Shown: positions 5,755 to 61,320 of the stretch, piece after piece
How the letters are laid out: every line of letters begins with the position of its first letter
How positions within the stretch are numbered: the first letter of the stretch is position 1
Source: an uncultured Flavobacteriales bacterium
GTDB taxonomy: Bacteria; Bacteroidota; Bacteroidia; Flavobacteriales_D; Sanyastnellaceae
NCBI GenBank assembly: GCA_905478325.1
Contig: CAJQIB010000009.1
Location: 1 to 64,000, forward strand
DNA: 64,000 nt
Direction of reading: 5' to 3'
Notes under the pieces: model-generated
Seen by the model: only the letters and a program-made list of their open reading frames with translations
What the model was told of the DNA's origin: nothing
Databases searched by the model: none
Made by a program: the position numbers and the translations under genes

Positions 5755-5854
5755 TTTTTCTTCAGAAATTGAGGGGGTTGTGCAACATCTTGCCAAATTA
5801 GGTGTCTTAAACTTGGAAGCCAACTTCGAGGAAATGAATTGCAAGCGATTAACG

Positions 5855-17433: not shown

Positions 17434-17449
17434 CACGAACACCGCTCTA

Positions 17450-33900: not shown

Positions 33901-36900
33901 CCACACCACGCCACATTTGTCCAAACCATCGTCTTCTGGATCGAAGACATTGTCATCCTTATCAGGATTTCGAACACCTACCATCACCATCACCACATTG
34001 GCCAAATTGGGATTGCCTTTGACTGCGATTCGCGCATTGAAATCAGGATCAATCGTCTCAAACTCTTCGAACAGCGGATATCCAGCGGGTCGCTCCACCT
34101 TGAGGTTCTGCAACTTTCGGAATTCGATGTCAATGTTGTTCTCAAGAGGCCAAATCAAATCCTCGTCACCTGTATTCCACGGCGTCACCGTCATGGGGAT
34201 TTCGTACTCGTAGTAATTTGACTCGAAATCATTTCCTAAGCGCACAAAACACGTCATTTCGTTGTCTTCCAATGAGGTGCCGTCTGGACCCGCTTCGGCG
34301 TGTACGTACATCCGCAGTCGCTTGTACATCCGCATGTCGTAGTTGATGTTCCGGTATGCGCCGCGCGCGTCCCCATCTCTCAACCCACAGATTGCCAATT
34401 CGAGCGACTGCTCATTGAGTCGTCGCTGGTTTGCCGTACCCACGTCAATTTCTCGGATGATCCCTGGTGGGGTAACGTAAGGCACTGGCTCCCGGTTGCC
34501 GTTTTCTTCGATGTTGACCGCGCTGATGTTGAATGACGTCGAAGAGGGATCGTCTGGTTCCACTTCCTGCGGACCCGCCAAGGTATTGAGATACCGACGC
34601 CACTCTCCGCGAATAAGCTCCAATCGAGCAAACCGGAGGGTTACGGGCTCGGACCACCCTTTCATGAACATCCGAATAAACCGAATGGATCGGAAATCCG
34701 TGATGCCTCCTACACGCGACTCAAATTCCCTCACAGGAATTTTGAATTGGTACCAACGAATTGTGCGCTCGCGTCCATCCGCAGTCTCTTTGACCTCTTC
34801 AAAGGTGTCCGTGATGTAGTTGTTCCCAATATTCACTTCGCCCAAGTCTTGAGGCCGCATGGACACACGGTATTGGAAATAGCTTTCAATCGTTGACAGC
34901 GTAATGTCCTGGTTGATGTCCTCCGTATTCGGAATGGTCGTCGAGGTCACAGGGTAGCCATCGGGAGAGTCCGTGTTGCTGTTGCCTTCGTATCCATTGA
35001 ATCGAGCATACCGTTCCAGAATGGTCTCGTCTGCCGATTGTGCTTGAGGGGTTCGGAAATAGCGAAAGTTGTCTGCTGAAGGGTCCGCTAAATACGTTTG
35101 GTACGCATCCGGATTCAACCAACTCGACACCTCATTCAACCATTCACCGAAAAAACTCTGTTCCTCACTATCCGGCAATCCATCCAAACCAACGTCTTGA
35201 AGAAGATAATCACCTGAGGTATTATCGAACGCATTGACCACATTGAACGTGGCCGGATCTGGGTAGGTACCCCACACGCCATCCAACGTGGGTAAATCCG
35301 GATTGTTTGCAGATGGCAAACCATTCTCATATCCGAGTTGGCTGTCATTCAGCACGTCCTCAGACACGTTGCCTAAATTGAAATACAGCTCGCCACCCGT
35401 GAGGTTTTCAGAATCCTCGTTGAATGGATCCATCAACCAGAACTGGAGGTATTCAATGTTGGCGGCTTCGAAGTCCGTTGTTGTCAGTGCACGTTGAATG
35501 CCACCCCATCTCGACGCAGGATCAGCCAAACTTCCCTCTGGGGTCAAACCGGCCGAAATTCCACCCGCTCCATCGGGCAAATCATAATTGTACTGTCCCC
35601 GTTGCTCAGGTCGAAAGGTCAAGTCCAACGTGGGGATGTTCGGAGGCGTTCCCGTCGGCAATTCTCGGTTTGGAAACACCTCACCTTCCAAGACCTCACG
35701 TGTCCTGTGATCGCTTTTAATCTCTGCGGTTACCTGGCCATCTTCAAGACCCGATCCACGGAAGAATTGAGGATCTACGGTATACCAGCTGAGTGCAGCA
35801 CGGTTGTAATTGTACACCAAGCTATCCTCAATGTTTCCTTCAGGAAAAAGCGTGGGTTGAAGCTTCGGAGTCGATGCGAGGAACCAACGATTCACCGAGC
35901 GAATGTCAATCGCAGATTGGCTGCCTTCAAAATCGTCGACGTAAGCGTTGCCATCGGAACCAATGGCTCGACTGTGACCAGGAATCATATACGCAGCCTC
36001 TGCACTGATGTCAATGCTCGACTTTGCCGATGTCTCATAAAAGGGAAGCTTGTCGACAATATCCGTTAGCAGCTGACTTTCTGTTCGCCAAGCAAAATCC
36101 GCTCCCACCATCGAGTTATTGACCGGCTCATTGCCGATGTTCACCTTTTGGGTGAGTGGCCGCTCCCGGAGATTCAAAAACGTCGCTCCGATGTTGAATT
36201 TGTCGCTCGCGACATAGTCAAATCGCGTTCCCATCATCGTCTTCGTCTGTATGCTAAAGAGTGAGTTACTCTCCAACGAAACTTTGATGTTTCGTCCAGA
36301 CTCGAGGAGTCCATCGTTGATGATTCGGACCCTTCCTAGATTGTAATCAACGGTATAGTCTTGGTTCTCGATCAAACGAACACCGCCTGCTGTGACCGTT
36401 ACAGATCCTTCAGGAACATTCATCGAGTTCAAGCTGATTTCACTGCTTGTTTGACTTTGAAATTCGCCTTTAATCCGGAATCGGTTGAGCGCTGGGATTT
36501 GCTGCGCTGCGGTTTTTGTCGAGTCATACAGCGGTTGAAATACGATGGTCGAAATCAGGTTCTGTGCCAAAGCCGGGTCGTCGACACGTGCTTCAATTTC
36601 CTTCTTCAAATTGGAACCAAACGGCTCCACTGAAGGGAAGAAAATCCGGCCATTCTGACTGTGAATGGTTCCTCCTGAAGTCGCTGCGTTGTCCACAAAA
36701 TCAAATACCCCATCAGGCTGGCTCATTCCGTTGATATCCAATCGGTCCATTCCCAATAACTGGAGAAGCAAGGTCCCGTCCAACGGATTTCTTGGAATGT
36801 AATTCAAGTCAACTCCGGTGGCAGGGTCGTTGTACCAGATGTTGAGTCTAAAATTCTCCTGACTCAGGCCGAACGCTTGCATCGAGTAAACGTTCTTCAT

Positions 36901-38469
36901 CATGATCTTCCAAAGCGGGGCGGGTGCTCCGTCGCTCAGACGCAATTGGGTGATGCTTGATTTCAGCATTTTCAGCATGAGGGCATCAGGAGCGCTAAAG
37001 CCATCTTGAGACAACGTACCTACCTGATACGTCTCTCCGTTCAACGTATACTCGTACGAAACCCCAAGAACTTCAGCATTGTTGAGGGCCTGACGCAATG
37101 AAATGAAACCCAAACGCGAGTTGAAAGAATATTCCGTTGGAGCCAGTTTTCGCGCATTCCCAACGCGCTCGTAGTGCACGCCTTGGGTCATCCTAACATT
37201 CAACGCTGAAATCGCTGCATTCGCTCCTGTAAACCCCAGAACATTCGGGTTGTTCACCATGAGCTCGAACAGCTCATTGTTTTGATTGCTCGGGTTCAAA
37301 TTGTCGGTGATGACAAGATCGGGATCGTCAGTCAGTTCAGCCACGGGCAAGTTGGACGAGACATAATTGGGGTGTTCGCCCAAATCTGTGAATCCAATCA
37401 CATTCCGCACATCCTGTGTGTTGGCCTGTGTATTGACGACCCAAACCTCAATCCGTGTGATATTCACTCCAGAATTTGGAACCGGAAGGCTCCGCATGGC
37501 CTCATCGTATTGATTCAAGAAAAACTGAGACAGGAAGTAGTGCCGATTGGCCTCGTAATCATCTGCACGGATATCAAACTCCTGTGTTTGCGCTCCCCCC
37601 TCTACTTCAATTTCCTTGCGTTCCCCTTTTTGCTGGGAGAGCACAGTGGTGTTGTACAGCCTTCCCCATTGCGTTTCTAGTTTGACACCAAACAAACTTT
37701 GGCTCCCGGTAATCAAAGTCCCCGGCAATGGCATGGAAATGTGACCCGCTTCAAAGTTCTTGAGGATGTCGTCTTCATCCCCTTGAAAACCAATGTTCAT
37801 TTGATTCTCGAAATCAAACAGCGCCTCTGTATTGTAATTCGTTCCCAGTTCTATTTTATCTCCAATCTTTCCTCCAATATTCAATTGGATCCGTTGGTCG
37901 AAATCGAAGGTGGTGATACTCCGCTGACCTTCAGGGATTCTCGGGTTTTCGGTACTGGATCTATTCAGACCAAAAGTCAACTCCGCTGACCCTTGAGGTT
38001 TTATTTCAATCTCATTGCTTCCAAAAATGGATTCAAAAAGTTTACTGTCAATCGTCAGTTTCGGCGCAAAAGCCCGATCTGCCTCATCATCCTCTGCTTG
38101 CAGATCCGTCCAATATTCTGTGAGGTTTCCCTCCATATCGTATTCTAGAAATTCATCCAACGTAAGGAAGGTCGTCGGTCGAAACTCCAAGGTGTCTCCA
38201 ATCAACTGCCGGATACTATACAGACCCGTTTCCTCATCGTACACCATTTCATATTGAACGTTGCTCGGCCACGCAAAATCGAATCCAGAAGGATTCTCTG
38301 TTGGGTTAAAGGGGTCCTCGCCTCCAAATGGGAAAGGCAGGTCAATCACGATGGAGTCTCCTCCTGACGCATCCTCTTGGGACCACACGAGCGAATTGCC
38401 CACCAAAAGAACAGCCCACACCATTGTGAACTCTAAACACCTTCTTCTTATGGTCAGCATCTTCCGCAT
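30988..38469 (-). CDS. sprA: SprA, type IX secretion outer-membrane translocon
   Basis: 2493-residue giant outer-membrane beta-barrel protein that forms the protein-conducting channel of the T9SS and is required for gliding motility in Flavobacteria. Signal peptide: RCLEFTMVWAVLLVGNSLVW. SprA hallmarks seen: PFGGEDPFNPTENPSGFDF near the N-terminus, the SQSLFGVKLETQWGRL segment, the AYVDDFEGSQS motif, MRPQDLGEVNIGNN, and a strongly amphipathic C-terminus ending in FNLNQ. Around residues 1665-1720 there is a glycine-rich low-complexity stretch (GGGDAAAGGIGKPGDD, then GAGGGSARGGGSAKGGGG) that looks inserted relative to typical SprA. The start ATG lies 1 nt after the ruvA stop, so ruvA and sprA are probably coupled. 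Confidence 0.96.
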   Translation of the reverse strand: MRKMLTIRRRCLEFTMVWAVLLVGNSLVWSQEDASGGDSIVIDLPFPFGGEDPFNPTENPSGFDFAWPSNVQYEMVYDEETGLYSIRQLIGDTLEFRPTTFLTLDEFLEYDMEGNLTEYWTDLQAEDDEADRAFAPKLTIDSKLFESIFGSNEIEIKPQGSAELTFGLNRSSTENPRIPEGQRSITTFDFDQRIQLNIGGKIGDKIELGTNYNTEALFDFENQMNIGFQGDEDDILKNFEAGHISMPLPGTLITGSQSLFGVKLETQWGRLYNTTVLSQQKGERKEIEVEGGAQTQEFDIRADDYEANRHYFLSQFFLNQYDEAMRSLPVPNSGVNITRIEVWVVNTQANTQDVRNVIGFTDLGEHPNYVSSNLPVAELTDDPDLVITDNLNPSNQNNELFELMVNNPNVLGFTGANAAISALNVRMTQGVHYERVGNARKLAPTEYSFNSRLGFISLRQALNNAEVLGVSYEYTLNGETYQVGTLSQDGFSAPDALMLKMLKSSITQLRLSDGAPAPLWKIMMKNVYSMQAFGLSQENFRLNIWYNDPATGVDLNYIPRNPLDGTLLLQLLGMDRLDINGMSQPDGVFDFVDNAATSGGTIHSQNGRIFFPSVEPFGSNLKKEIEARVDDPALAQNLISTIVFQPLYDSTKTAAQQIPALNRFRIKGEFQSQTSSEISLNSMNVPEGSVTVTAGGVRLIENQDYTVDYNLGRVRIINDGLLESGRNIKVSLESNSLFSIQTKTMMGTRFDYVASDKFNIGATFLNLRERPLTQKVNIGNEPVNNSMVGADFAWRTESQLLTDIVDKLPFYETSAKSSIDISAEAAYMIPGHSRAIGSDGNAYVDDFEGSQSAIDIRSVNRWFLASTPKLQPTLFPEGNIEDSLVYNYNRAALSWYTVDPQFFRGSGLEDGQVTAEIKSDHRTREVLEGEVFPNRELPTGTPPNIPTLDLTFRPEQRGQYNYDLPDGAGGISAGLTPEGSLADPASRWGGIQRALTTTDFEAANIEYLQFWLMDPFNEDSENLTGGELYFNLGNVSEDVLNDSQLGYENGLPSANNPDLPTLDGVWGTYPDPATFNVVNAFDNTSGDYLLQDVGLDGLPDSEEQSFFGEWLNEVSSWLNPDAYQTYLADPSADNFRYFRTPQAQSADETILERYARFNGYEGNSNTDSPDGYPVTSTTIPNTEDINQDITLSTIESYFQYRVSMRPQDLGEVNIGNNYITDTFEEVKETADGRERTIRWYQFKIPVREFESRVGGITDFRSIRFIRMFMKGWSEPVTLRFARLELIRGEWRRYLNTLAGPQEVEPDDPSSTSFNISAVNIEENGNREPVPYVTPPGIIREIDVGTANQRRLNEQSLELAICGLRDGDARGAYRNINYDMRMYKRLRMYVHAEAGPDGTSLEDNEMTCFVRLGNDFESNYYEYEIPMTVTPWNTGDEDLIWPLENNIDIEFRKLQNLKVERPAGYPLFEEFETIDPDFNARIAVKGNPNLANVVMVMVGVRNPDKDDNVFDPEDDGLDKCGVVWVNEMRLADFNERGGWAAIAQMNAKLADLGNISVAANMSVPGFGGLEQRLQDRQRETIQGIDASGTIQLGKLMPKALGITLPMYLGWSEQVSTPQYDPLSPDIELASQEGLSTERQNNAKSVSRLRSINFSNIKIDPKFGEGTSRDRNRGGGDAAAGGIGKPGDDAKGGKSGGKEGPGAGGGSARGGGSAKGGGGSNLGLIKMLRPGNFTGNFSYNEAFERDVNTEFQLNREYRGGLTYNFSHAPKQFKPFSKVGFLRKHDFMKWLTEFNFYLGIKQLTVGSQMNRIYETSRVRNNTAALLGVETNLLINTQVMKTWQWNRNYALKYDLTKALKFDYNGTAQALVGEPAGVIDRSEADQYQVYRDSVISNLLNAGEITNYNHNITGTYKLPFDKLPLVNFITSDVRYQGTFRWDRSPFSQDSIGNTIQNSRNLSLNAQANFTTLYNKIPGVKDLLSPPRKAPRRQTNNENRDGFGNAEEEEKEKLELNPLAAIVRLLASIQNVSGTFSRNEGMLLPGYAKKARYAGFEDEFSTDLGLFLLGHQNTNLVGDQVPGVDFAETAASNGWLVPQPYQNQQYTETFQETFNVRANLEPIKYFKIELTANRSETRNHTSFFRFDEDIDIDENINRFVYESPNETGQFSATVLSWRTAFVEDDLEDQFNSDLWDNFLLGRLEISQRLNAESHNDETPAETGYYNGWGATSQDVTIPAFIAAYLGVDTKDVPLDVFDTPVAPNWRVTYDGLTKSDFFKQYFKRFSLSHSYRSTLTTNYVSNLNYEEDGLGNPTAIDQSEFGNYVSGRQFNVVSMSEQLSPLLGVDMTFNTASENEPQLKVEMKRDRNIAFGLTNYQITETKSNALVVGVGYKFKDIPNPFMKTYGKLPVKMLKETDLVLRADLNIRDNRTIIRKMEELQNQVTAGQNLISIKVSADLEVSDKITMRAFYDHQITDPYISTSFATSNIRSGVALRFNLNQ

Positions 38470-38470
38470 A

Positions 38471-39067
38471 TCACAACCGCTTCAAGGCATGTTTAATTAA
38501 TGCCTCCACGGCCATAGGCTCAGTGGAGTCTCCTATAATTTGGTCCATCGCTTTATCACATCGTGCCCGATCGAAGCCCAATGTGGTGAGCGCAATTAAC
38601 GCATCCTGCCGGACATTATTGTGGACCTTTTTTGAAGACGACATCGCTGCACCATCCGAGGCAGACACTGCACCGACTTTATCCTGTAAATCAATGATGA
38701 TTCGTTGTGCTGTTTTCGCCCCGATGCCTTTGACACTTTTCATGGCATCCACATCTCCCATTTGAATCGATTGCCTCGCAGTTTCTGGGTCCATCGCGCT
38801 CAGAACCATTCGTGCTGTATTGGCTCCTACACCGCTAACTCCGATTAGCAATAAGAACAATTCACGCTCTTCCGGATGCGAAAATCCATAGAGAAGTTGC
38901 GCATCTTCTCGAACCACCATGTGCGTGTGCAACACGATGTTTTCATTCGATCCTATGCGCTCAAACGTGGTCAAACTGATGTGAACCTGATAGCCTACAC
39001 CACCACATTCAATGACAGCATATGTTGGCGTTTTTTCGACCAGACGCCCATTCAAGTGGTGAATCAT
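38471..39067 (-). CDS. ruvA: Holliday junction DNA helicase subunit RuvA
   Basis: 198-residue DNA-binding subunit of the RuvAB branch-migration complex. Motifs: [36 protein letters not shown], and the two helix-hairpin-helix motifs around LLIGVSGVGANTARMVLSAM and DAMKSVKGIGAKTAQRIIID. The C-terminal domain III, which contacts RuvB, is present (ALTTLGFDRARCDKAM). The ATG overlaps the stop of the malic enzyme gene (ATGA), and sprA follows immediately. Confidence 0.96.
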   Translation of the reverse strand: MIHHLNGRLVEKTPTYAVIECGGVGYQVHISLTTFERIGSNENIVLHTHMVVREDAQLLYGFSHPEERELFLLLIGVSGVGANTARMVLSAMDPETARQSIQMGDVDAMKSVKGIGAKTAQRIIIDLQDKVGAVSASDGAAMSSSKKVHNNVRQDALIALTTLGFDRARCDKAMDQIIGDSTEPMAVEALIKHALKRL

Positions 39068-41337
39068 GCTGGGTTTTTAATTTGAGCATCAACAACGGCA
39101 AGGCGCACCATGTCGTGAATTTCACGAACTGAAGAGCCCATTTGCAGAACATGAAACGATTTCCGCATGCCCAAAAGTACGGGACCCTGGACTTCAATCC
39201 CTGCCATTTCTTGCAAGAGCTTGTAGGCAATGTTTCCTGCAGACAAATTCGGAAATATCAAGGTATTGACACGCTTGTTGTGCAAGGTTGAGAAGGGAAA
39301 GGATTCCGAAAGCAACTCATCATTCAAAGCAAAGTTGGCTTGAATCTCACCGTCAACAATCAAGTCAGGGTGTCTTTCCTTCAGCAATACTGTAGCTTTT
39401 GCCATCTTTTCCGCATCGGCTCCTCCTGCTGAACCAAAGTTGGAGTAGCTCAACAATGCAATGCGCGGAACAATTCTCAGTTTACGAACGGCATCTGCAG
39501 TCAAGGCTGCGATCGACGCGATTTCCTCTGCTGTAGGATTCACATTGACCGTGGTATCCGCAAAAAACATAGGGCCCCGCTTGGTTTCCAAAATGTACAT
39601 GCCCGCCACCTTGTCCACGCCGTCGGCTTTACCAATGACTTGTAAGGCCGGTCGAATTACACTGGGATAGGTCCGTGTCAATCCTGAAATAAGGGCATCA
39701 GCATATCCCGTTTGAACCAACATGGCTCCAAAATAATTGCGCTGACGCATCAAGCGTTCCCCTTCTCGCGATGTCAATCCATGCCGCATTCTTCGTTGGA
39801 AGAACGCTGCCCCAAATTCCTCCCGCCGCTCGAGTTCATCGTCCGATCGGGGATTGATAATTTCAACGTTGGGCAATTCGAGTGAATGCTCTTCAATCAA
39901 GCGTTCGATGACAGACCGTCGTCCCAACAAAATAGGTTGAGCAATTCCTTCTTCAGCCGTTTGTTCCGCTGCTTTGAGGACACGATAGTGGTCCGCTTCC
40001 GCAAAAACCACACGTTTTGGAGACTTCTTGGCCCTTTCGGAAAGGGTCCGTGAGAAGCCGTTATCGTGACCCAAACGGTCAAGAAGTTCAACTTTGTATG
40101 CTTCCCAATCGTGTATAGGGGCCTTCGCAATGCCCGATTCCATGGCGGCCTTGGCGACAGCAGGTGCAATGTGAGAGATCAAGCGAGGGTCCAGCGGTTT
40201 GGGAATGATCAGGTCACGGCCAAACACAAACGATTGGTGACCATATGCTTCCGCTACCTCGTCCGGCACGTTTTCTTTGGCCAATTCAGCGATGGCATGC
40301 ACAGCCGCTAATTTCATGGCATCATTGATTCCCGTCGCACGCACATCCAAGGCGCCTCGAAAAATGAACGGGAATCCCAAAACATTGTTGACCTGGTTGG
40401 GATGATCCGACCGACCGGTTGCCATGATGATGTCACTGCGAACAGCCAACGCCTCATCGTACGGGATTTCTGGGTCGGGATTGGCCAACGCAAAAACGAT
40501 GGGGTTTGCTGCCATGCCCTGGATCATCGACCCCTGCACAACACCCCCCTTACTCAACCCCAAAAACACATCGGCTCCTTTCATCGCAGCCTCGAGACTT
40601 TCAAAATGTCGTTTACCCGCAAACCGCTGCTTCGATGGGTCCAACCCTTCTCTTCCCGCGTGGATGTGGCCTTTGCTATCAAAGACATCAACTTGATTGA
40701 GCGTCAATCCCAATTGCTCATACAGATCAATACAGCTCATCGCTGCAGCTCCAGCACCACTGACAACCAACCGAATATCGTGTATTGATTTATCCGCTAA
40801 TTCCAATGCATTCAACAATGCCGCGGCAGAAATAATCGCTGTTCCATGCTGGTCATCATGCATGATTGGAATGTCCAATTCAGCCTTCAGGCGACGTTCA
40901 ATTTCAAAAGCCTCTGGGGCTTTAATGTCTTCAAGATTGATTCCTCCAAACGTCGGAGCAATGGCCTTAACGGTCGCTACAAACTGATCCACATCGGATG
41001 CGTCTACCTCAATGTCAAACACATCGATGTCTGCGAAAATCTTGAAAAGAACGGCTTTACCCTCCATGACCGGCTTGCTTGCTTCCGGGCCAATGTTGCC
41101 CAAACCAAGCACCGCAGTTCCATTGGAAATGACCGCAACAAGATTGCCCTTGGCTGTGTACTTGTATACATCTTCGGGATTCGCCGCAATCTCCATGCAC
41201 GGCTCTGCTACTCCAGGGCTGTAGGCCAGCGACAGATCCTTTTGCGAACTATGCGGCTTTGTAGGAATGACCTCTATTTTCCCTTTCCTCGCCCGACTAT
41301 GGTAATCCAACGCCTCTTGCTTCGTAGATGAACTCAT
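39064..41337 (-). CDS. maeB: NADP-dependent malic enzyme with C-terminal phosphotransacetylase domain
   Basis: 757-residue two-domain protein. Residues 1 to about 430 are malic enzyme ([48 protein letters not shown] for NADP binding; [16 protein letters not shown]). It decarboxylates malate to pyruvate with NADP. The C-terminal part ([63 protein letters not shown]) is a phosphotransacetylase-like domain that regulates the enzyme in known MaeB proteins. First gene of the long run to tonB; overlaps ruvA by ATGA. The gene order maeB-ruvA-sprA-gcvH is frequent in Bacteroidota. Confidence 0.96.
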
Positions 41338-41402: not shown

Positions 41403-42197
41403 TCAATGTTGAACAACGAATCGCTGGGTCTGAGGACGAGCGCCATTGATTTCCAATGAGAGGAAATAGAGTCCTTCAGCCATGTCATTCCCATCGATGT
41501 AGATCAAGCCTTGGGATTGGTTAACGGTACGCGACCAGACCGCCTGTCCGGCAGCGTTATAAATATGAACCTGACCGCTTTGTCCGGCTTTCAATTGATA
41601 CGACAACGTTGACAATCCACGAACGGGCATGGGCTGAATCAAACCCCATTCGAGTGCAACTTCGTCGTCCGCTGTTCCAAGCGCGCAATTTTCAGCATCG
41701 AGGCAAAACAACACGGTATGGCAAACACCTCCATTGATATCTGTGATCGGAGCGAAGCAGTATTCCAAAGCGGTAACTCCGGCGATTCCTGCTGGATAAT
41801 AATCAGCGAAAAACGAAGAGTCCGTTTCACCAGGAAGAATGGTCACTACAAGGTTGGGCGACGTATTGGACATCGCTGTGCCATAGGGGTAACATAACGG
41901 CCCCCAGCAGAAGCGCTCGTAAGCGCCGGGAGCTGGATTGCCATCTTCGTCCTCCACGTAGGGCAGGTTAAAGGGTTCTACTCCTTGCACAACCTGTCTC
42001 GACACAATCAACTTCAACGTGTCCGTCGTCAAATTAGCGACATCCCAGTGCACGGCAATTTCATCGTTTTCAGGATCTGATAAGGAACCTTCAAAAACTT
42101 CAACTGCATCAATCAAAGTGACTTGACACCATGCTGTTTGATTGACCATAAAAGCCCCTACAACACAGAAAATCGATAGAATATTAAAGCATTTCAT
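41403..42197 (-). CDS. Secreted protein with type A T9SS sorting domain
   Basis: 264-residue secreted protein. Signal peptide MKCFNILSIFCVVGAFMVNQ, then an immunoglobulin-like region of about 160 residues with several cysteines (RFCWGPLCYPYGT; ALEYCFAPITDINGG; FCLDAENCALG) and a C-terminal type A T9SS domain (QVHIYNAAGQAVW, then DMAEGLYFLSLEINGARPQT). Function beyond export to the surface is unknown. The ATG at 42197 is the only start that keeps the signal peptide, and a TATCTTCG promoter box ends 4 nt before it, so the mRNA should be leaderless. Divergent from tlpA. Confidence 0.85.
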   Translation of the reverse strand: MKCFNILSIFCVVGAFMVNQTAWCQVTLIDAVEVFEGSLSDPENDEIAVHWDVANLTTDTLKLIVSRQVVQGVEPFNLPYVEDEDGNPAPGAYERFCWGPLCYPYGTAMSNTSPNLVVTILPGETDSSFFADYYPAGIAGVTALEYCFAPITDINGGVCHTVLFCLDAENCALGTADDEVALEWGLIQPMPVRGLSTLSYQLKAGQSGQVHIYNAAGQAVWSRTVNQSQGLIYIDGNDMAEGLYFLSLEINGARPQTQRFVVQH

Positions 42198-42201
42198 TGG
42201 G

Positions 42202-42209
42202 CGAAGATA
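42202..42209 (-). promoter_or_regulatory. Predicted -7 element of T9SS-tailed protein gene
   Basis: TATCTTCG on the minus strand ends 4 nt before the ATG at 42197, the same geometry as at nadC. Confidence 0.6.
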
Positions 42210-42305
42210 CCTATCATGGCGCGGATTTTGCATACCGTTGAAGTCAGGTTTGAAATTGAATCCCTTACCTTGCCGAACCCTGATTGGCATCAAAGACTTT
42301 ACAGA

Positions 42306-42833
42306 ATGAACAAAATCACAAAGCTGGCAAGATGGATCGCGTTAACAGCACTCTGGTGCGTTGCTTCGAACTTTGCTTTTGCGCAGACGGCGTCACAATC
42401 TGCAAATCGTTTGCCCGAGATGGAATTGAAAGACATGGAAGGCCAAATGGTTGCCATCTCCAGCCTCTATGCCGAAGGAACTCCTACATTGATTTGTTTT
42501 TGGGCCACCTGGTGCAGCCCTTGCAAGCGGGAACTCAATAACTACGCCGAACTTTATGAAGATTGGCAAGACGAGACTGGCGTTCAAATTGTAGCCGTCA
42601 GCATCGATGACTCTCGAAGTGTTCGCCGTGTAGCACCTTATGTCAATAGCGTTATGTGGGATTATACCGTTCTCCTCGATCCCAACAAAGATTTTGCTCG
42701 AGCCATGCAGGTGGTCAATGTTCCGCACACGTTTCTTGTGAACGGAGAAGGTCAAATTGTGTGGCAGCACAATAATTATTCCGATGGTGACGAGGAAGAA
42801 GTGTACGAACAACTCATGAATCTGGTCGAATGA
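42306..42833 (+). CDS. TlpA-family thiol-disulfide oxidoreductase
   Basis: 175-residue exported thioredoxin-fold protein. Signal peptide LARWIALTALWCVASNFAFA, then LPEMELKDMEGQMVAISSLY and the active site ICFWATWCSPCKREL (CSPC), ending with VVNVPHTFLVNGEGQIVW (cis-Pro loop). It acts as a periplasmic thiol-disulfide reductase. ATG 42306 is the start of the signal peptide; the upstream in-frame ATG at 42216 would extend into the divergent promoter region. Its stop overlaps the ATG of the DUF6029 gene. Confidence 0.9.
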   Translation: MNKITKLARWIALTALWCVASNFAFAQTASQSANRLPEMELKDMEGQMVAISSLYAEGTPTLICFWATWCSPCKRELNNYAELYEDWQDETGVQIVAVSIDDSRSVRRVAPYVNSVMWDYTVLLDPNKDFARAMQVVNVPHTFLVNGEGQIVWQHNNYSDGDEEEVYEQLMNLVE

Positions 42834-44530
42834 GAACCCCTCTTTTTCTGCTCTTATTATTTGGCCTTGGCCTGAACAAACTGATCGCGCAAGGCGATGG
42901 CCCCGAGAACACCACGCAAGGCACCGGACCTGTTTCAGGGAATTTTCAAGTGCTGTGGCAATCCTACAGCGAAGACGAACGCATCGGCGCCATTGTTCCC
43001 CCTGAAAAAACGGGATACAATGCCTATGGAAACTTGCGCTACAATCAAGGAGGGTTCAGTGCTGGCTTTCGGTATGAATCGTATCTCAATGCCGTCTTGG
43101 GTTTTCCCGGACGATTCAAAGGAAGTGGAATTGGATATCGTTTTGCTCGGTATGCCTCGCCTTCCCAAAATGTTGACGTGACCATCGGTAATTTTTACGA
43201 GCAATTCGGAAGTGGCATCGTGTTGCGGTCATATGAAGAAAGAGCCCTTGGAATTGACAATGCCATGGACGGCGTTCGCATCATCTTGAGGCCCATCGAA
43301 GGAATCCAAATCAAAACCATTTATGGTAAACAGCGTTTTGACTTTGACGATGGCTTGATCAATGGAGACGGCATTGTACGTGGCATTGATGGCGACTTGG
43401 ATCTCAATGCGCTTTTCTCGAAAAAGGGCGGGCAAGACTGGAAGACCAAGGTGAATCTCGGGGCCAACTTCGTTAGCAAATTCCAAGCGGGAGGAACCAT
43501 TGCAAGCGACACACTCATCTTGACGCTTCCTGAAAATGTGGGGGCATGGTCTTACAGGTTGGACCTCATGCGCAACGGTTGGTCTGCGGGTGCCGAATAC
43601 GCCGCCAAAATCAACGACCCGAGTGCAGACAATGGATACACGTATCGAAGAGGCGAAGCGCTCATGGCGCATCTCGGCTACACCAAACGTGGCTTGGGGA
43701 TCAGTGTCCACGCGAAAACGGTTGATAACATGAGCTTTCGGTCGGACCGGGATTTGCTCCTTTTTGATTCCCCGATCAATTACATCCCCGCCATCACACA
43801 GCAACACACCTACAATTTGGCTGCGACGCTCTATCCTTACGCGACCGTCATTTCCGGTGAGTCTAGCCTGAGTGCCGAAGTCTTTTACAACATCAAGAAA
43901 GGCACCCTTTTGGGTGGTAAATACGGCACGAATGTCAGTGTCAATTTTGCTGCAGCCAATGGTTTAGACACCACCAACTTAAGTGGGGTACAGGGGGTGA
44001 TAGATGGATACGAAAGGCAATCTTGGGGCTTTGGCCCTGAGAAGTTTGTTCGGGATTTCAACGTGCAGATTAGCCGCAAAGTTTCCAAAACGTTCAAGTG
44101 GAAATACACTTTCTACAATCTGGAATTTAACACGCTGACTACGCCGGTTACGACCACTTTCAAGGGCATGGTTTATGCCGATATCCACGTCTTGGAAACA
44201 CAATGGAAAACAGCCAAACGCGAAAGCCTCCGGACGGAATTTCAATTGTTACTGACGGATCAAGACAAAAGGGATTGGGGCACCATCCTAGCAGAATACA
44301 CGTGGAGTCCCCATTGGTTTGCCAGCGTTCTCGACCAATACAACTTTAGCAACCCGAATGAAGCGGATCGCGTGCATTATATCTACGCTGCCGTGGGACG
44401 CATCGAGGGGCCTCATCGCTTGTCCATTGGCTACGGAAAGCGAAGAGAGGGAATCTTCTGCATCGGTGGAGTCTGCCGAGCAGTCCCCGCTTCCAATGGT
44501 TTTGAAGTGAATTTTTCATCGAGTTTTTAA
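42830..44530 (+). CDS. DUF6029-family outer-membrane protein
   Basis: 566-residue protein with a signal peptide (MRTPLFLLLLFGLGLNKLIA) followed by a beta-strand-rich sequence with alternating aromatic and polar residues ending in FEVNFSSSF, i.e. an outer-membrane barrel with a C-terminal aromatic residue. The segments IGNFYEQFGSGIVLRSYEER, GIDNAMDGVRIILRP and IKTIYGKQRFDF are characteristic of DUF6029 proteins, whose function is unknown. It overlaps the TlpA gene by 4 nt (ATGA), so the two are co-expressed; a TlpA-assisted barrel is an inference. A 180-bp gap with a promoter and hairpin follows. Confidence 0.78.
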   Translation: MRTPLFLLLLFGLGLNKLIAQGDGPENTTQGTGPVSGNFQVLWQSYSEDERIGAIVPPEKTGYNAYGNLRYNQGGFSAGFRYESYLNAVLGFPGRFKGSGIGYRFARYASPSQNVDVTIGNFYEQFGSGIVLRSYEERALGIDNAMDGVRIILRPIEGIQIKTIYGKQRFDFDDGLINGDGIVRGIDGDLDLNALFSKKGGQDWKTKVNLGANFVSKFQAGGTIASDTLILTLPENVGAWSYRLDLMRNGWSAGAEYAAKINDPSADNGYTYRRGEALMAHLGYTKRGLGISVHAKTVDNMSFRSDRDLLLFDSPINYIPAITQQHTYNLAATLYPYATVISGESSLSAEVFYNIKKGTLLGGKYGTNVSVNFAAANGLDTTNLSGVQGVIDGYERQSWGFGPEKFVRDFNVQISRKVSKTFKWKYTFYNLEFNTLTTPVTTTFKGMVYADIHVLETQWKTAKRESLRTEFQLLLTDQDKRDWGTILAEYTWSPHWFASVLDQYNFSNPNEADRVHYIYAAVGRIEGPHRLSIGYGKRREGIFCIGGVCRAVPASNGFEVNFSSSF

Positions 44531-44628
44531 AATACTCGGATTCATTTTTATTGTCCTGACCTTGTTAAAAATCCGTTCTAAACGTTTTTTTTATGTACCA
44601 AATGTTACAATGAGTAGGTGACAATCAT

Positions 44629-44636
44629 TACATTTG
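44629..44636 (+). promoter_or_regulatory. Predicted -7 element of thioredoxin/T9SS gene 1
   Basis: TACATTTG matches TAnnTTTG, 75 nt upstream of the ATG at 44712. This is the longest predicted 5' leader in the window. Confidence 0.5.
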
Positions 44637-44650
44637 AGACTCTTGCATTA

Positions 44651-44676
44651 GCACACAGCAAAAAGTTGTTGTGTGC
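44651..44676 (+). promoter_or_regulatory. Hairpin in 5' leader of thioredoxin/T9SS gene 1
   Basis: GCACACA (44651-44657) and TGTGTGC (44670-44676) form a 7-bp stem around a 12-nt loop, followed by TTTT. It would lie within the 5' leader after the predicted promoter at 44629. It could be an attenuator or an mRNA-stabilising hairpin. Confidence 0.5.
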
Positions 44677-44711
44677 TTTTGAGAAATTGAAACCTAATTA
44701 AACTGTTTTAG

Positions 44712-46187
44712 ATGAAGCACATTTACTCTCTGATTGCAGCACTCCTTTTAGGCGTTGCTTCTTTCGCTCAGTTGCCAGACGGCAGCATTGCACCTGATTT
44801 TACTGCGACCGACATTGACGGTGTAGAACACAACTTGTATGAACTCCTCGATGAGGGCAAGAAGGTCATCGTAGACTTTTCTGCGACGTGGTGTGGCCCT
44901 TGCTGGAGCTACGCGGTCGGAGGCGCCTTAGAAGAAGTGTATGAAATGTATGGTCCTGACGGAACCGATGAGGTTCGCGTTTTTCACATTGAGTCTGACG
45001 ATTCCACAACAATGGATGATCTGCTCGGAACAGGTACAGCGACACAGGGAGACTGGACTTCAGTCATCAACTTCCCAATTATTGACGATGCCGCTAGCAT
45101 TTTCGATGCGTATGGTTGCACGTACTACCCTACAATCTACACCATTTGCCCGAACCGTATTTTAACGGAATCAGGTCAGGGTTCAGCTGATGCTCACGCA
45201 CAAATCTTCCAAGCGAACGATTGCGCTGCTGCATCTTTAATCAACGATCCGGCTTTGTTGGGATACACTGGAGGAACGACTGCTTGCCCAGGTGAGCCCG
45301 TGAACATGAGCGTGGATATGATGAACTTGGGAGTCACGAACTTGCAATACTGCACCATCGCCGTTATGGATGGCGCTACAGAGTTGTTGAGCTACGACTG
45401 GTCCGGTGATTTGGACACGTATGGTGTTGCCAACGTTGATTTGGGTACCGCAACATTCGACAGCGACACCAACTTCACCATCGAAATCACTTCAGGGGAC
45501 GACAACACAGCCAACAACAACTCTTCGGGATCTGTAGCGCTTGCTACTTCAGGAACGTCCTTGATTCACATTGAAATCATGATCGATTCATGGCCACAAG
45601 AAATTGGCTGGTCGATTACCGATGCGTCAGGTGCGGTTGTTCAACAAGTTAACATCGGCGAAATCGCTGGAGAAGCTGAGGATGTTATTGAATGGTGGGT
45701 GAATGCACCTTCTGAAGGATGTTACACCTTTATGATCGAAGATTCATATGGTGACGGTATCAATGGCTCGGCTTGGGGAGTGAACGATGGCTACTGCACG
45801 GTAAAGTCGTATGACGACAACTTGACCTTCGTATCGAGCATTTACGACTATGACGGATCGTACCAGTTTGAATCTGAAGCAGCCGGTATGGCCGTCACTT
45901 CAGTCAACACCGGAATACAAGAATTGTCTTTGAATGAGGTGACCAAGGTGTTCCCTAACCCATTCTCTGACCAGACTACTTTGCAGTTCTCTTTGAACCA
46001 AGCATCGAATTCCAGCATGACTGTTCGCAACCTCATTGGTCAGCAGATCATGAACCTCGACTTCGGTACATTGCAGGCTGGTGAGCACAATCGCGTATTG
46101 GACTTCTCTGGCATCACGGCTGGTGTTTACTTGATCTCCCTCAATGCAGGTGAAGAAACAACAACAATGCGAGTAACGTTGAAGTAA
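44712..46187 (+). CDS. Thioredoxin-domain protein with T9SS sorting domain (paralogue 1)
   Basis: 491-residue protein. A signal peptide (MKHIYSLIAALLLGVASFAQ) is followed by a thioredoxin fold with active site FSATWCGPCWSYAVGG (CGPC) and the cis-Pro segment YPTIYTICPN at residues 20-170. A middle region of about 230 residues contains Ig-like strands and the likely calcium-binding DSYGDGINGSAWG. A C-terminal type A T9SS domain follows (TKVFPNPFSDQTTLQFSL; MTVRNLIGQQIM; FSGITAGVYLISLNAGEETT). It would be exported to or through the outer membrane. It is closely related to the next gene over its thioredoxin half. The redox partner is unknown. A strong terminator follows. Confidence 0.9.
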   Translation: MKHIYSLIAALLLGVASFAQLPDGSIAPDFTATDIDGVEHNLYELLDEGKKVIVDFSATWCGPCWSYAVGGALEEVYEMYGPDGTDEVRVFHIESDDSTTMDDLLGTGTATQGDWTSVINFPIIDDAASIFDAYGCTYYPTIYTICPNRILTESGQGSADAHAQIFQANDCAAASLINDPALLGYTGGTTACPGEPVNMSVDMMNLGVTNLQYCTIAVMDGATELLSYDWSGDLDTYGVANVDLGTATFDSDTNFTIEITSGDDNTANNNSSGSVALATSGTSLIHIEIMIDSWPQEIGWSITDASGAVVQQVNIGEIAGEAEDVIEWWVNAPSEGCYTFMIEDSYGDGINGSAWGVNDGYCTVKSYDDNLTFVSSIYDYDGSYQFESEAAGMAVTSVNTGIQELSLNEVTKVFPNPFSDQTTLQFSLNQASNSSMTVRNLIGQQIMNLDFGTLQAGEHNRVLDFSGITAGVYLISLNAGEETTTMRVTLK

Positions 46188-46212
46188 TTCCAAACAGCCC
46201 CGACTTTTTGTT

Positions 46213-46252
46213 AAAGTCCGCATCATCACTCACGATGGTGCGGACTTTTTCA
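46213..46252 (+). terminator. Rho-independent terminator
   Basis: AAGTCCGCA pairs with TGCGGACTT, extended by a G-U pair and CATC/GATG, giving a stem of about 14 bp with loop ACTCAC, followed by TTTTTC. It ends the transcript of the first thioredoxin/T9SS gene and separates it from its paralogue. Confidence 0.85.
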
Positions 46253-46305
46253 TTGTTATGTATCTCATATAGCATAAATTAGGGTGCCACCAATAAACAT
46301 CTTCA

Positions 46306-47763
46306 ATGAATCGTCTCAAATTCATCCTTCCCATTGTCTTTGCTTTCATGCTATCAACCGAATCGCAAGCACAACTGCCTGATGGTGCAGTGGCTCCAGA
46401 TTGGACAGCAACTGATATTGATGGAATCGAACACAATCTTTACAGTTACCTCGACTCGGGCTATGCTGTCATTTTAGATTTTTCAGCGACTTGGTGCGGC
46501 CCGTGTTGGACATACCACACCAGTGGCGTTTTGGAAGAGCTTTATGAAAGTCATGGTCCCAACGGAACCAATGAAGTCCGTGTTTTCTTCATTGAGTCTG
46601 ATGACAGCACCACTGACGAGGACTTGCATGGCACGGGACAAAACACGTGGGGTGACTGGACGGAAGGGGTTAACTATCCGATCATCGACAATGGAGGCAA
46701 CATTTTTAGTAGTTATCAAAACACCTACTATCCCACTTTGTATACCGTATGTCCCAATGGATTGCTGAATCAAATCGGTCAGGCGAGTTACAACATTCAT
46801 GTAAACTACATAGAATCCACAGATTGTGCCGCTGCTAGTTTTCCATCGGACGCCCGTATTCTCAGTTATACCGGTGCCATTCGCAGTTGTCCTGGAGAGC
46901 CTGCTCCTTTGAGCGTTCGCCTTATGAACAATGGAACGGAACCGATGACATCGTGCACCTTCGAAGCGACCACACTTTTCGGCACCGAATTGTTGTCATA
47001 CGAATGGTCGGGCAACTTGGATACGTATGAAATCGAGGACGTTCAACTTGGTGACGCCATTTTTCCAACGACTTCCATTTTCTTCGTTGACATCGTTTCT
47101 GAAGACGACAATGATTCAAATAACAGCATCTCTTCGACGATGAACCTCAGCTCACAGACGAGTACCAGTTTGGTTCGTGTGCGCTTGACGACAGATGACA
47201 CTCCAGGAGACAATAGCTGGTCTATCTCCGACGCTGCAGGAGCGGAAGTAGAAGGCGCTCCCTTTGGATCGATGACAGAACCGAATACAGAATACACGTG
47301 GTGGGTGTCTTTGCCTTCCACTGGCTGCCATGCATTCGACCTGTACGACCTCACCGGAAATGGTGGAGACATCGCATGTGACCTCAGTACATTCAATGAT
47401 GATTTACAAAACATCAACACGATCTTCACCGCATCCAACAGCGGTGCATGGTCCAACTTGAACAAGGGGTTTTTAGTGAATGCAATCAACACCGACGTCG
47501 CCGAGTTCAATGGTTCATCAGAACCGATGTTGCTCCATCCCAATCCAGCAAACAACAGCATTGTGCTCAATGCTGTGGACGCTTCTTGCCACATGATTCA
47601 AATTCACCATGTGAGTGGAGCATTGGCAAAAGAATGGAATGGTCTCTCGGTTCCTACTTCTGGTAGCGTAAACCTCGATATCAGCGATTTGGCTTCTGGC
47701 ATTTACATCGTGTCAGGACATTCAGCGGCAAACAAGCAAAGCGCTCGATTAATCGTCCGCTAA
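46306..47763 (+). CDS. Thioredoxin-domain protein with T9SS sorting domain (paralogue 2)
   Basis: 485-residue tandem paralogue of the preceding gene. Signal peptide LKFILPIVFAFMLSTESQA; thioredoxin active site FSATWCGPCWTYHTSG (CGPC); NTYYPTLYTVCPNGL; Ig-like middle region; T9SS type A tail (LLHPNPANNSIVLN; ISDLASGIYIVSGHSA). The thioredoxin halves of the two proteins are very similar, while the middle regions differ: the DSYGDGINGS loop of paralogue 1 is replaced by YDLTGNGGDIACDL. It begins 53 bp after the terminator of paralogue 1, so it has its own promoter, which I could not identify. The Omp28-like gene follows 16 bp downstream. Confidence 0.9.
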   Translation: MNRLKFILPIVFAFMLSTESQAQLPDGAVAPDWTATDIDGIEHNLYSYLDSGYAVILDFSATWCGPCWTYHTSGVLEELYESHGPNGTNEVRVFFIESDDSTTDEDLHGTGQNTWGDWTEGVNYPIIDNGGNIFSSYQNTYYPTLYTVCPNGLLNQIGQASYNIHVNYIESTDCAAASFPSDARILSYTGAIRSCPGEPAPLSVRLMNNGTEPMTSCTFEATTLFGTELLSYEWSGNLDTYEIEDVQLGDAIFPTTSIFFVDIVSEDDNDSNNSISSTMNLSSQTSTSLVRVRLTTDDTPGDNSWSISDAAGAEVEGAPFGSMTEPNTEYTWWVSLPSTGCHAFDLYDLTGNGGDIACDLSTFNDDLQNINTIFTASNSGAWSNLNKGFLVNAINTDVAEFNGSSEPMLLHPNPANNSIVLNAVDASCHMIQIHHVSGALAKEWNGLSVPTSGSVNLDISDLASGIYIVSGHSAANKQSARLIVR

Positions 47764-47779
47764 ATTTCTTTTTGAACTC

Positions 47780-48658
47780 ATGCGACATCACGCAGCATTG
47801 TCCATCTTTCCGATGGTCTTCGTTCTGGTTTTACTAGGATGCGATGAACTCGAAAATCCGGTCGTCGAAATCACGACATCGTACCAAGAGAGTGCCTATG
47901 GTCCTGTGCCCGTTTTTGCGGCGCTACCTGTTGGAGAGGCTGCGCAGCATGTGCTGATTGAAGACTTTACAGCGCATCAATGCGGCAACTGTCCCGACGC
48001 CGCCATCATTGCGTCGCAAATTGCTGAAAATCAAGGTGACGCTGTCTCGGTCATGGCCATTCATGCCGGGGCCTTAGCGAACACAGATGATGATCACTTC
48101 GATACAGATTGGACGACAGTAGAAGGCGATTTGTTTTGGGACCAACTGGATTTTCAAGCGAATCCCTTAGGACGGATCAACCGAATTGGAGGTGCTGGTA
48201 ATTTCTGGGCGCCTGCGCAATGGTCTGACGAAACCTCAGAACAACTTGCAAATACGCCGCAGGTGGGGCTTCAAGTTGTTCATGATTGGGTTCCCGAGAG
48301 CAACCACCTCAATGTGCATGTGCACGGGACATTTTACGAAGAAACCTCCGGCCCCATCCAAGTAGCACTGCTCATTTTAGAATCGAATATCTACGATTAC
48401 CAATTGGATTTCGCCAGTGACCCTGAGCTGGTACCTGACTATGCGTTCAATCACGTTCTTCGAGGCTCGGTGCATGGCGCATTTGGCCTAGGCTTTGGCG
48501 ATGCTGCCATGGGGGCTTCAGAAGGTGATGTCGCGACTCATTCTGTGACATATACGTGGGATGACTCATGGGTTGTAGAGAATGCTACGGTCCTCGTTGT
48601 GGTTTCAGATGCCGGTGGCATCGTATTGAATTCGTTCGAATTCCACCCTACCGAATAA
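47780..48658 (+). CDS. Omp28-related thioredoxin-fold lipoprotein
   Basis: 292-residue lipoprotein (signal ending VLLGC near residue 21) similar to Omp28-related outer-membrane proteins. The N-terminal part has a thioredoxin-like site, VLIEDFTAHQCGNCPDA (CGNC), followed by VSVMAIHAGAL and NPLGRINRIGG. The C-terminal half is Ig-like with the pattern FNHVLRGSVHGAFGLG common to this family. Location is probably the outer membrane. No T9SS tail is seen. It is 16 bp after paralogue 2 and 5 bp before the beta-barrel gene, so these genes form one unit. Confidence 0.82.
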   Translation: MRHHAALSIFPMVFVLVLLGCDELENPVVEITTSYQESAYGPVPVFAALPVGEAAQHVLIEDFTAHQCGNCPDAAIIASQIAENQGDAVSVMAIHAGALANTDDDHFDTDWTTVEGDLFWDQLDFQANPLGRINRIGGAGNFWAPAQWSDETSEQLANTPQVGLQVVHDWVPESNHLNVHVHGTFYEETSGPIQVALLILESNIYDYQLDFASDPELVPDYAFNHVLRGSVHGAFGLGFGDAAMGASEGDVATHSVTYTWDDSWVVENATVLVVVSDAGGIVLNSFEFHPTE

Positions 48659-48663
48659 GGACC

Positions 48664-49299
48664 ATGATACGTGCTTTTGGTCTTGTCATTCTAGGGCTGT
48701 TTACTTTGCATTCGACTGTAACAGGTCAATCCGAAAAGCAGCTTGTGGATTTCAGTGCGAAGGTCGCCATTGGCTTTTCAACCACTCAAGTCCATGGAGA
48801 TCAAGTTTCCGGATTCAATCAGTTTGGTGCCACATGTGGAGCGACGTTGGCAATGCAACGAACGTCCTCACGTAGCACTGAATTGGGAATTCTCTGGACT
48901 CAGAAAGGTAGCCGTCGGCCGCCAGACCCTAAAAATGACGACTACACAACATGGCAATATCGCTTTACATACATCGATGTCCCTCTCGTTCGTCTGTGGC
49001 AACCCGACAGTGATGCATGGTGGTTCGGATTGGGCATTCAACCCAGTATTTTATTGGGGAAAGGCCAGGATGATTTTTTCGGCAACGGACTCAGTGACAT
49101 TACCTCGTTTGAATTGAATCCAATCGACCTCGGGGCCATAGGGGTCGTTGGGTTTCATGCCTCCGAACATTGGGATGTTGAAGTGCGATTGACACAGAGT
49201 ATTTTGCCGATCAGCCCTCGTCCAGAACAGCCTGTTTCAGGTTGGAATAACTACATGATGAACATGGCCATCCAGTGGATGGTCGCGTGGAGGATCTAA
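48664..49299 (+). CDS. Small outer-membrane beta-barrel protein (PorT-like)
   Basis: 211-residue protein with a signal peptide (MIRAFGLVILGLFTLHSTVT) and about eight predicted beta strands, resembling the porin/PorT family: QLVDFSAKVAIGFSTTQV, RSTELGILWTQKGSR, YRFTYIDVPLVRLW and WWFGLGIQPSILLGK. Barrels with this pattern are widespread in Bacteroidota and include the T9SS protein PorT, but similarity is too general to call it PorT. It immediately follows the Omp28-like gene. ATG 48664 begins the signal peptide. Confidence 0.72.
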   Translation: MIRAFGLVILGLFTLHSTVTGQSEKQLVDFSAKVAIGFSTTQVHGDQVSGFNQFGATCGATLAMQRTSSRSTELGILWTQKGSRRPPDPKNDDYTTWQYRFTYIDVPLVRLWQPDSDAWWFGLGIQPSILLGKGQDDFFGNGLSDITSFELNPIDLGAIGVVGFHASEHWDVEVRLTQSILPISPRPEQPVSGWNNYMMNMAIQWMVAWRI

Positions 49300-61278: not shown

Positions 61279-61303
61279 TATCAAAGTGCAATGCACTTTG
61301 ATA
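61279..61303. promoter_or_regulatory. 25-bp perfect palindrome before hydrolase gene
   Basis: TATCAAAGTGCA (61279-61290) and its exact reverse complement (61292-61303) flank one base. It starts 15 bp after the DUF3299 stop and ends 5 bp before the hydrolase promoter box. It could be an operator, or in RNA a 10-bp hairpin with loop CAATG acting as terminator, although only a mixed pyrimidine tract follows. Confidence 0.6.
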
Positions 61304-61308
61304 CTTCT

Positions 61309-61316
61309 TATCTTTT
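61309..61316 (+). promoter_or_regulatory. Predicted -7 element of hydrolase gene
   Basis: TATCTTTT, one mismatch to TAnnTTTG, ends 4 nt before the ATG at 61321, the same spacing as at nadC and rlmH. Confidence 0.45.
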
Positions 61317-61320
61317 CGCC

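Follow-up and report, generated by a model that had tools for sequence, protein, structure and literature searches.

We report that a 64,000-nucleotide stretch of DNA from an uncultured Flavobacteriales bacterium (GenBank assembly GCA_905478325.1, contig CAJQIB010000009.1, positions 1 to 64,000; the whole stretch is hereafter the window) carries a gene cluster whose core, encoding a TlpA-like protein, a DUF6029 outer-membrane barrel and an Omp28 lipoprotein, recurs across Bacteroidota. Two further thioredoxins in the cluster, with tails of the type IX secretion system (T9SS), are a variable add-on to this core. The gene content, its linkage in the phylum, the conserved cysteines, the modelled thioredoxin fold of Omp28, a replaceable partner and an association with T9SS are compatible with a conserved trans-envelope thiol-redox module, linked to the cell surface, whose layers exchange thiols; we give this reading roughly even chances. 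If so, TlpA would act in the periplasm, with a DsbD-type transporter presumably maintaining its reduced state, the DUF6029 barrel would have a cross-strand C-x4-C pair close to its outer opening, and the thioredoxin-fold Omp28 lipoprotein would lie outside, accompanied in the window's own lineage by the two T9SS-exported thioredoxins. Thiols passed between these three layers could then reduce or repair surface and secreted proteins, including T9SS cargo, outside the outer membrane.

The gene cluster and its linkage across Bacteroidota

The first gene (42306-42833, + strand) encodes a putatively periplasmic TlpA/ResA-like thioredoxin-fold protein, assigned on its Pfam AhpC-TSA match (81.4 bits against a cut-off of 26, E 6.8e-23; AhpC-TSA or Redoxin being the family match looked for) and its WCxxC, here WCSPC with the CSPC codons at 42513-42524. 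The DUF6029 barrel gene follows (42830-44530, +; PF19494, E 3e-163, 544.8 bits against a cut-off of 27), its start overlapping the TlpA stop by 4 bases. Then come, in tandem, T9SS-tailed thioredoxin 1 (44712-46187, +; CGPC at 44892-44903, tail at 45948-46172) and thioredoxin 2 (46306-47763, +; CGPC at 46495-46506, tail at 47536-47757), which share 43% identity. In Pfam, thioredoxin 1 has a redoxin-like N-terminus (AhpC-TSA 35.4 bits against 26) and a Por_Secre_tail match of 43.7 bits against 27, while for thioredoxin 2 the tail scores 30.5 bits and AhpC-TSA 24.6, just below the cut-off. TIGR04183, another T9SS-tail model, gives 44.4 and 24.6 for thioredoxins 1 and 2, respectively, with a cut-off of 23. 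By these matches both proteins are type A tail cargo, with predicted export to the surface. The Omp28 lipoprotein gene (47780-48658, +; PF11551, 74.3 bits against 34.9) has its lipobox Cys21 codon at 47840-47842 and its CGNC codons at 47981-47992, and the last gene (48664-49299, +) encodes a small outer-membrane beta-barrel (Pfam OMP_b-brl_2, 31.3 bits against 27), a variable member that is present at some loci and absent at others. Hence all genes behind the first-pass annotation's four CxxC thioredoxin-fold proteins and two barrels within 7 kb were recovered, on the + strand.

Along the six genes the intergenic gaps are -4, 181, 118, 16 and 5 bases. Within the 118-base gap between the tailed genes lies a terminator-like hairpin of 15 pairs (46213-46248, +), on account of which the six genes may form two transcripts; its basis is a consensus scan alone, which returned 11 matches in the region where 7.3 were expected. 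A promoter scan of the region gave no excess (8 found, 8.9 expected from shuffles). In the genome from which the window derives, DUF6029 and Omp28 have one match each.

Linkage was examined in three sets of loci. The phylum sample consisted of 247 genomes, within which loci were chosen by the Pfam DUF6029 profile; 68 genomes other than the window's own had a match, and from 60 of them one locus each was fetched (a second locus in G180 was left out, as were the family f23 genomes G026, G054, G065, G077, G139, G163, G175 and G187), and after removal of L121, which has no DUF6029 open reading frame (ORF), 59 loci were counted. The own-order set comprised 20 stretches from the genus, family and order of the window, of which 16 were counted since four have no DUF6029 ORF. 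Finally, at least 589 relatives were available for the named set, which retains the best 80 of them and is biased toward the window's type. The named set shares members with the unnamed ones, such that some genomes are counted twice, and near copies from the same genus are included. Greedy gene calling had masked some genes behind longer opposite ORFs, and the linkage counts were therefore redone on all ORFs.

DUF6029 was detected in 69 genomes of the phylum sample (67 over cut-off) and Omp28 in 53 (47 over cut-off), and 49 genomes are common to the 67 and the 53 (Fisher p 1e-31, uncorrected for kinship). A TlpA-like CxxC gene lies within 4 kb of DUF6029 at 52/59 phylum-sample, 74/80 named and 15/16 own-order loci, and a second CxxC partner, of thioredoxin fold or Omp28, at 53/59, 79/80 and 16/16, respectively; both partners are present within this distance at 48/59, 74/80 and 15/16 loci. 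In the phylum sample 113 of the 124 near genes of these kinds share the strand of DUF6029, and 7 such genes lie farther than 4 kb away within the flanks that were fetched. Moreover, both cysteines of the CxxC are kept in 114/114 Omp28 short forms, 59/59 long T9SS-tailed proteins and 146/147 TlpA-like proteins among the aligned proteins of the fetched loci. (The Omp28 short forms come from the named set (70), the phylum sample (30), the own-order set (13) and the window (1), and the long tailed proteins, from 38 loci, number 32 own-order, 24 named, 2 window and 1 phylum sample.) We rejected a chance cluster given the co-occurrence of both partners and the conservation of CxxC in the relatives. 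Both the conservation of the cysteines in homologues and the linkage in other genomes, the lack of which would, according to the first-pass annotation, refute an under-described envelope thiol-redox system, are accordingly borne out, and these data support such a system.

The heart of the system, on the other hand, is not the T9SS-tailed pair, as that annotation had it: the pair is present in the window, but a tailed TlpA-like partner was found at only 10/59 phylum-sample and 22/80 named loci, and it was rejected as core for this reason. The core of the module is TlpA-DUF6029-Omp28.

The barrel cysteine pair, the Omp28 fold and the probable surface partner

The motif C-x-x-[GA]-[VI]-C is present in the last 45 residues of 57 of the 59 phylum-sample DUF6029 ORFs. 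The remaining two, L082 and L083, have disrupted frames, with the motif on another ORF; in L083 (G226, 5354-7119) this is the overlapping next ORF, which by eye also has a T9SS-tail-like end. Taking all sets together, 151/152 distinct ORFs longer than 400 residues have the motif, with the named loci found partly by it: one of the two patterns used to find the named set was this motif, and its presence in 80/80 there is not independent evidence. Exactly two cysteines past residue 35 of the stop-to-stop ORF were counted in 39/59 phylum-sample DUF6029. An alignment of 63 proteins, whose identity to the window protein falls as low as 15%, has 9 invariant columns, 5 of which are in residues 541-557; the p value of 1.5e-6 for this cluster presumes that the stretch was named beforehand, which it was not.

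In the window the motif reads C544-I-G-G-V-C549 (codons 44459-44476, +). The predicted model of the barrel (predicted local distance difference test, pLDDT, 89.5; predicted template-modelling score, pTM, 0.85) has about 24 long strands by our own count, and a small hairpin, composed of residues 541-545 and 548-552, lies between strands 23 and 24 and places C544 opposite C549. Provided that both ends of the barrel are periplasmic, strand parity would make this the last outward loop.

For Omp28 the Pfam Thioredoxin match is unclear (E 0.23). The predicted model (pLDDT 95.1) has a thioredoxin-like N-terminus followed by a beta-sandwich; the elements of the former are strand 58-64, CGNC 68-71, helix 71-88, strand 89-95, helix 114-121, Pro129 and strand 130-133. 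The CxxC is thus at a helix start and a conserved proline stands ahead of the next strand, as in the thioredoxin fold, and Pro129, at the cis-Pro place of the fold, is kept in 89/89 Omp28. On the model, then, the N-terminus of Omp28 has a thioredoxin fold. Among solved structures Omp28 comes closest to HBP35 of Porphyromonas gingivalis (PDB 5Y1A; Z 23.4, root-mean-square deviation (rmsd) 2.6 over 220 residues), which is also recovered by a profile search (E 5.4e-11) with the CxxC aligned.

The lipobox cysteine is likewise aligned in 114/114 short forms. Although the window protein has this cysteine, it scores 108.7 bits against the cut-off of 150 for the Omp28 lipoprotein subfamily NF033782, and by score it is a broader relative outside that subfamily. 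At least two D/E are present in the five residues after the lipobox cysteine in 87/114 Omp28; with a stricter lipobox pattern such D/E-rich starts make up 43/53 Omp28 compared with 12/70 other lipobox ORFs, the latter being a loose control set. The acidic residues could hint at a surface signal. In the parts of PMC5080379 that treat it, the Flavobacterium signal is SDDFE, from which Omp28 differs in that its D/E are mostly directly after the cysteine. An in-frame TGA in the Omp28 gene of G031 raised the possibility of selenocysteine, which was rejected because the L096 gene reads CxxC without a stop.

Which surface partner accompanies the core differs between lineages. A T9SS-tailed TlpA-like partner and a tailed Omp28-like one (18/59 phylum-sample, 17/80 named loci) were never found together in either set. 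The tandem tailed pair between DUF6029 and Omp28 is seen in the window's own genus and in L137, from another genus of the same family; L074 (same family) and other named loci have a single tailed gene upstream of TlpA, and at further loci a T9SS-tailed Omp28 occupies this place. DUF6029 is over cut-off in 16 genomes of family f23, all of which lack an Omp28 match; at the 8 fetched f23 loci an untailed thioredoxin (mostly CPHC) and a T9SS-tailed one come after DUF6029. The untailed proteins have a lipobox-like start in 8/8 cases by eye and in 4/8 by pattern. In a tree of 87 thioredoxin domains the tailed proteins of the window's lineage form a separate group (support 100/99), and the f23 tailed proteins group with the f23 untailed ones (16 rows, 93/92, unstarred; 17 rows including L112, 99/94). 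Since the tree places the two kinds of tailed protein apart, the tailed partner would most simply have arisen more than once. We also note that thioredoxin 1 has Cys 146, 171, 192 and 337 besides CGPC, that these are kept in all 59 long tailed relatives, and that they are likely structural.

Association with T9SS, redox direction and competing explanations

PorU (NF033707) was found at E <=1e-90 in 66 of the 67 genomes with DUF6029 over cut-off, the exception being G230; across the sample PorU is over the curated cut-off in 164/247 genomes, and matches of any strength occur in 184. Within f23, DUF6029 is present in 16/20 PorU-strong and 0/9 PorU-weak genomes (p 7e-5), a contrast that leaves out f23 genomes without any PorU match. 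With respect to redox direction, the window's own genome (98.9% complete) encodes one DsbD-type protein, and VKOR, DsbA and DsbB gave no match there, while among 14 control genomes 3, 8 and 6, respectively, had matches; no oxidative Dsb pathway was thus found in this genome. The presence of DsbD together with the three missing families favours a reductive use, and we infer that the module probably works in the reductive direction.

Several observations weigh against the reading of a trans-envelope thiol-redox module. A nearby TlpA is missing at 7/59 loci and a nearby second partner at 6/59, and L066, L093 and L213 have neither, although in L093 the contig ends beside DUF6029. The simple lipobox pattern fits just 73/114 Omp28, and the outward placement of C544/C549 has strand parity as its sole basis. 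DUF6029 occurs in only 2/21 PorU-strong genomes of family f6, and G230 (L080) keeps DUF6029 and an Omp28 lipoprotein (689 residues, CxxC, after DUF6029) with no PorU or SprA match; strict T9SS dependence was rejected on this ground, and the module accompanies T9SS but does not require it. The direction is drawn from gene absence in a single, 98.9% complete genome, in which other oxidases may exist, the exchange between the parts is deduced from genes, and the DUF6029 cysteine pair may be a plain structural disulfide.

With these points counted, a working link between the layers is likely and thiol exchange through DUF6029 itself is possible. A bolder form of the proposal, which we consider tentative and well short of even chances, is a protein-thiol electron conduit: TlpA on the inside, the C-x4-C of DUF6029 as the trans-membrane step and thioredoxins, as lipoproteins or T9SS-exported, on the outside, giving powered surface reduction without cytochromes.

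The structural disulfide is also the starting point of the alternative that survives best, although we hold it to be doubtful: TlpA and the partners would be folding helpers for the making or repair of the barrel and its lipoprotein, with no electrons crossing the membrane. A conserved pair in a tight hairpin is what a structural disulfide would look like, and dependence on disulfide helpers has a precedent in the barrel LptD. Left unexplained, however, is that the partner is itself a CxxC thioredoxin, with another thioredoxin where Omp28 is missing, and that its sequence includes a lipobox or T9SS tail.

Alternatively, the T9SS-tailed thioredoxins might catalyse disulfide oxidation or isomerisation in secreted cargo, as the first-pass annotation had suggested for a cysteine-rich PKD protein. 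This protein exists (8299-14265, +; 1988 residues, 14 PKD_4 stretches, 43 Cys), CGPC thioredoxins do carry T9SS tails and the genome has 71 T9SS-tail matches, but the PKD gene is 28 kb from the module and nothing ties it to the tailed pair. The tailed TlpA-like partner is also far less widespread than the core, and the oxidative proteins DsbA, DsbB and VKOR were not found in a genome that does have DsbD. Cargo oxidation is therefore less likely than thiol exchange through DUF6029, and we judge this explanation unlikely.

Another improbable explanation, modelled on other barrel-lipoprotein pairs of Bacteroidota, sees DUF6029 as a porin for polysaccharide or solutes that works with a surface lipoprotein, the thioredoxin folds being binding scaffolds. 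In PMC9603273, the only paper naming DUF6029 in the searched library, HHpred similarity to Wzi-barrel matches is described and polysaccharide secretion is suggested. AlgE and Occ porins are, together with the FimD/PapC ushers, the solved folds nearest to DUF6029 (Z 16 to 18, VIA-align), and a polysaccharide-synthesis-like gene (20340-21815) is present about 20 kb from the module. Foldseek gave template-modelling (TM) scores by query length of at most 0.44 among the matches listed, and since the two methods mix porin-, receptor- and usher-like barrels the fold gives no function; a sequence search for solved DUF6029 relatives returned none, with a single weak RecA match. Against a porin, the scanned module genes include no polysaccharide family (linkage to OPX/export was not searched), the conservation of CxxC is unlike scaffold use, and no TonB plug or receptor-barrel domain, as a Sus-like system would have, was detected in the 63 DUF6029 proteins at E 0.01. 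Acquisition of heme or metal, in which the redox pair would help release the ligand, is proposed by analogy with HBP35, a hemin binder, and is very unlikely, since according to the binding experiments given in PMC2907840 hemin binding survives both replacement of the active-site cysteines and N-terminal truncation, and the scan of the module genes turned up no heme family.

Returning to the trans-envelope thiol-redox module, we know of no reductant supplied outside the outer membrane, and the first-pass remark that none is obvious there was fair; what it overlooked is the conserved DUF6029 cysteine pair, which could be the connection, and the nearby sprA. If the proposal holds, Bacteroidota control thiol chemistry beyond the outer membrane, and DUF6029, Omp28 and the thioredoxin domain of HBP35 are assigned a role. 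It would also bear on the upkeep of active cysteine-containing T9SS cargo outside the cell; thiol proteases are among the T9SS cargo with cysteines. A gene set widespread in Bacteroidota may thus let cells extend thiol chemistry to the outer surface.

Neighbouring genes and comparison with known systems

The gene for SprA, the outer-membrane translocon pore of T9SS (30988-38469, - strand; TIGR04189, 2323 bits), lies 3.8 kb from the module. Next toward the module come ruvA and a malic enzyme gene, the three being consecutive at 30988-41337 (-), and between these and the module is a small T9SS-tailed gene (41403-42293, -), divergent to the module, with a Por_Secre_tail score of 27.1 bits against a cut-off of 27. 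SprA and RuvA homologues are present upstream of the module in 24/80 named, 14/20 own-order and 0/60 phylum-sample stretches, as counted by phmmer with the window proteins, an approach that may miss distant homologues. The nearness to sprA is a trait of the window's own lineage and its nearer relatives.

Elsewhere in the window, 61291-62460 (+) encodes an alpha/beta hydrolase that resembles polyethylene terephthalate (PET) hydrolases (PF12740, E 6.1e-14) and has a T9SS tail (28.0 bits against 27), and its product is a candidate secreted polyester-hydrolase-like protein. A UvrD helicase with a PD-(D/E)XK nuclease domain (2482-5952, -) and a second PD-(D/E)XK protein (17336-20305, +) are presumably an AddAB-like pair.

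In titles and the starts of abstracts we found no published description of a fixed set of a periplasmic thioredoxin, a barrel with a cysteine pair and a replaceable surface thioredoxin. The component families are known and so is an HBP35-like exported thioredoxin; the combination is the new part. The usher pores FimD/PapC are likewise large barrels (best Z 17.9, rmsd 4.5 over 379 residues) but share only 9% identity with DUF6029 at a Foldseek TM score of 0.42 by query length, the likeness being one of size and fold. The beta-sandwich domain of Omp28 is shared with Omp28 of P. gingivalis (PDB 2R2C; profile E 1.3e-33); in that solved chain the profile match starts only at position 108, which leaves the CxxC segment outside it.

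HBP35 is a T9SS-dependent surface protein (PMC2907840, PMC3120885), and a T9SS-exported thioredoxin therefore has a precedent. As set out in PMC2907840 where this domain is discussed, thioredoxin activity in vitro requires the active-site cysteines, protection against oxidative stress was not found, and the role of the domain was unknown to the authors, perhaps upkeep of cell-surface redox. In HBP35 the Omp28 fold and T9SS tail belong to a single chain, whereas in the window Omp28 is a lipoprotein and the tails are on the TlpA-like pair; moreover, HBP35 has its own 1.1-kb mRNA (PMC2907840), while the window's Omp28 sits in a gene cluster. No tail match was found in the window's Omp28, which is thus not of the HBP35 single-chain type, and such fusions occur in other genomes. 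Finally, the module resembles the TlpA/ResA-DsbD relays in combining a TlpA-type CxxC thioredoxin with a DsbD in the genome. Known relays of this kind serve the periplasm; in the window, by contrast, TlpA is linked to an outer-membrane barrel and to proteins that are probably at the surface.

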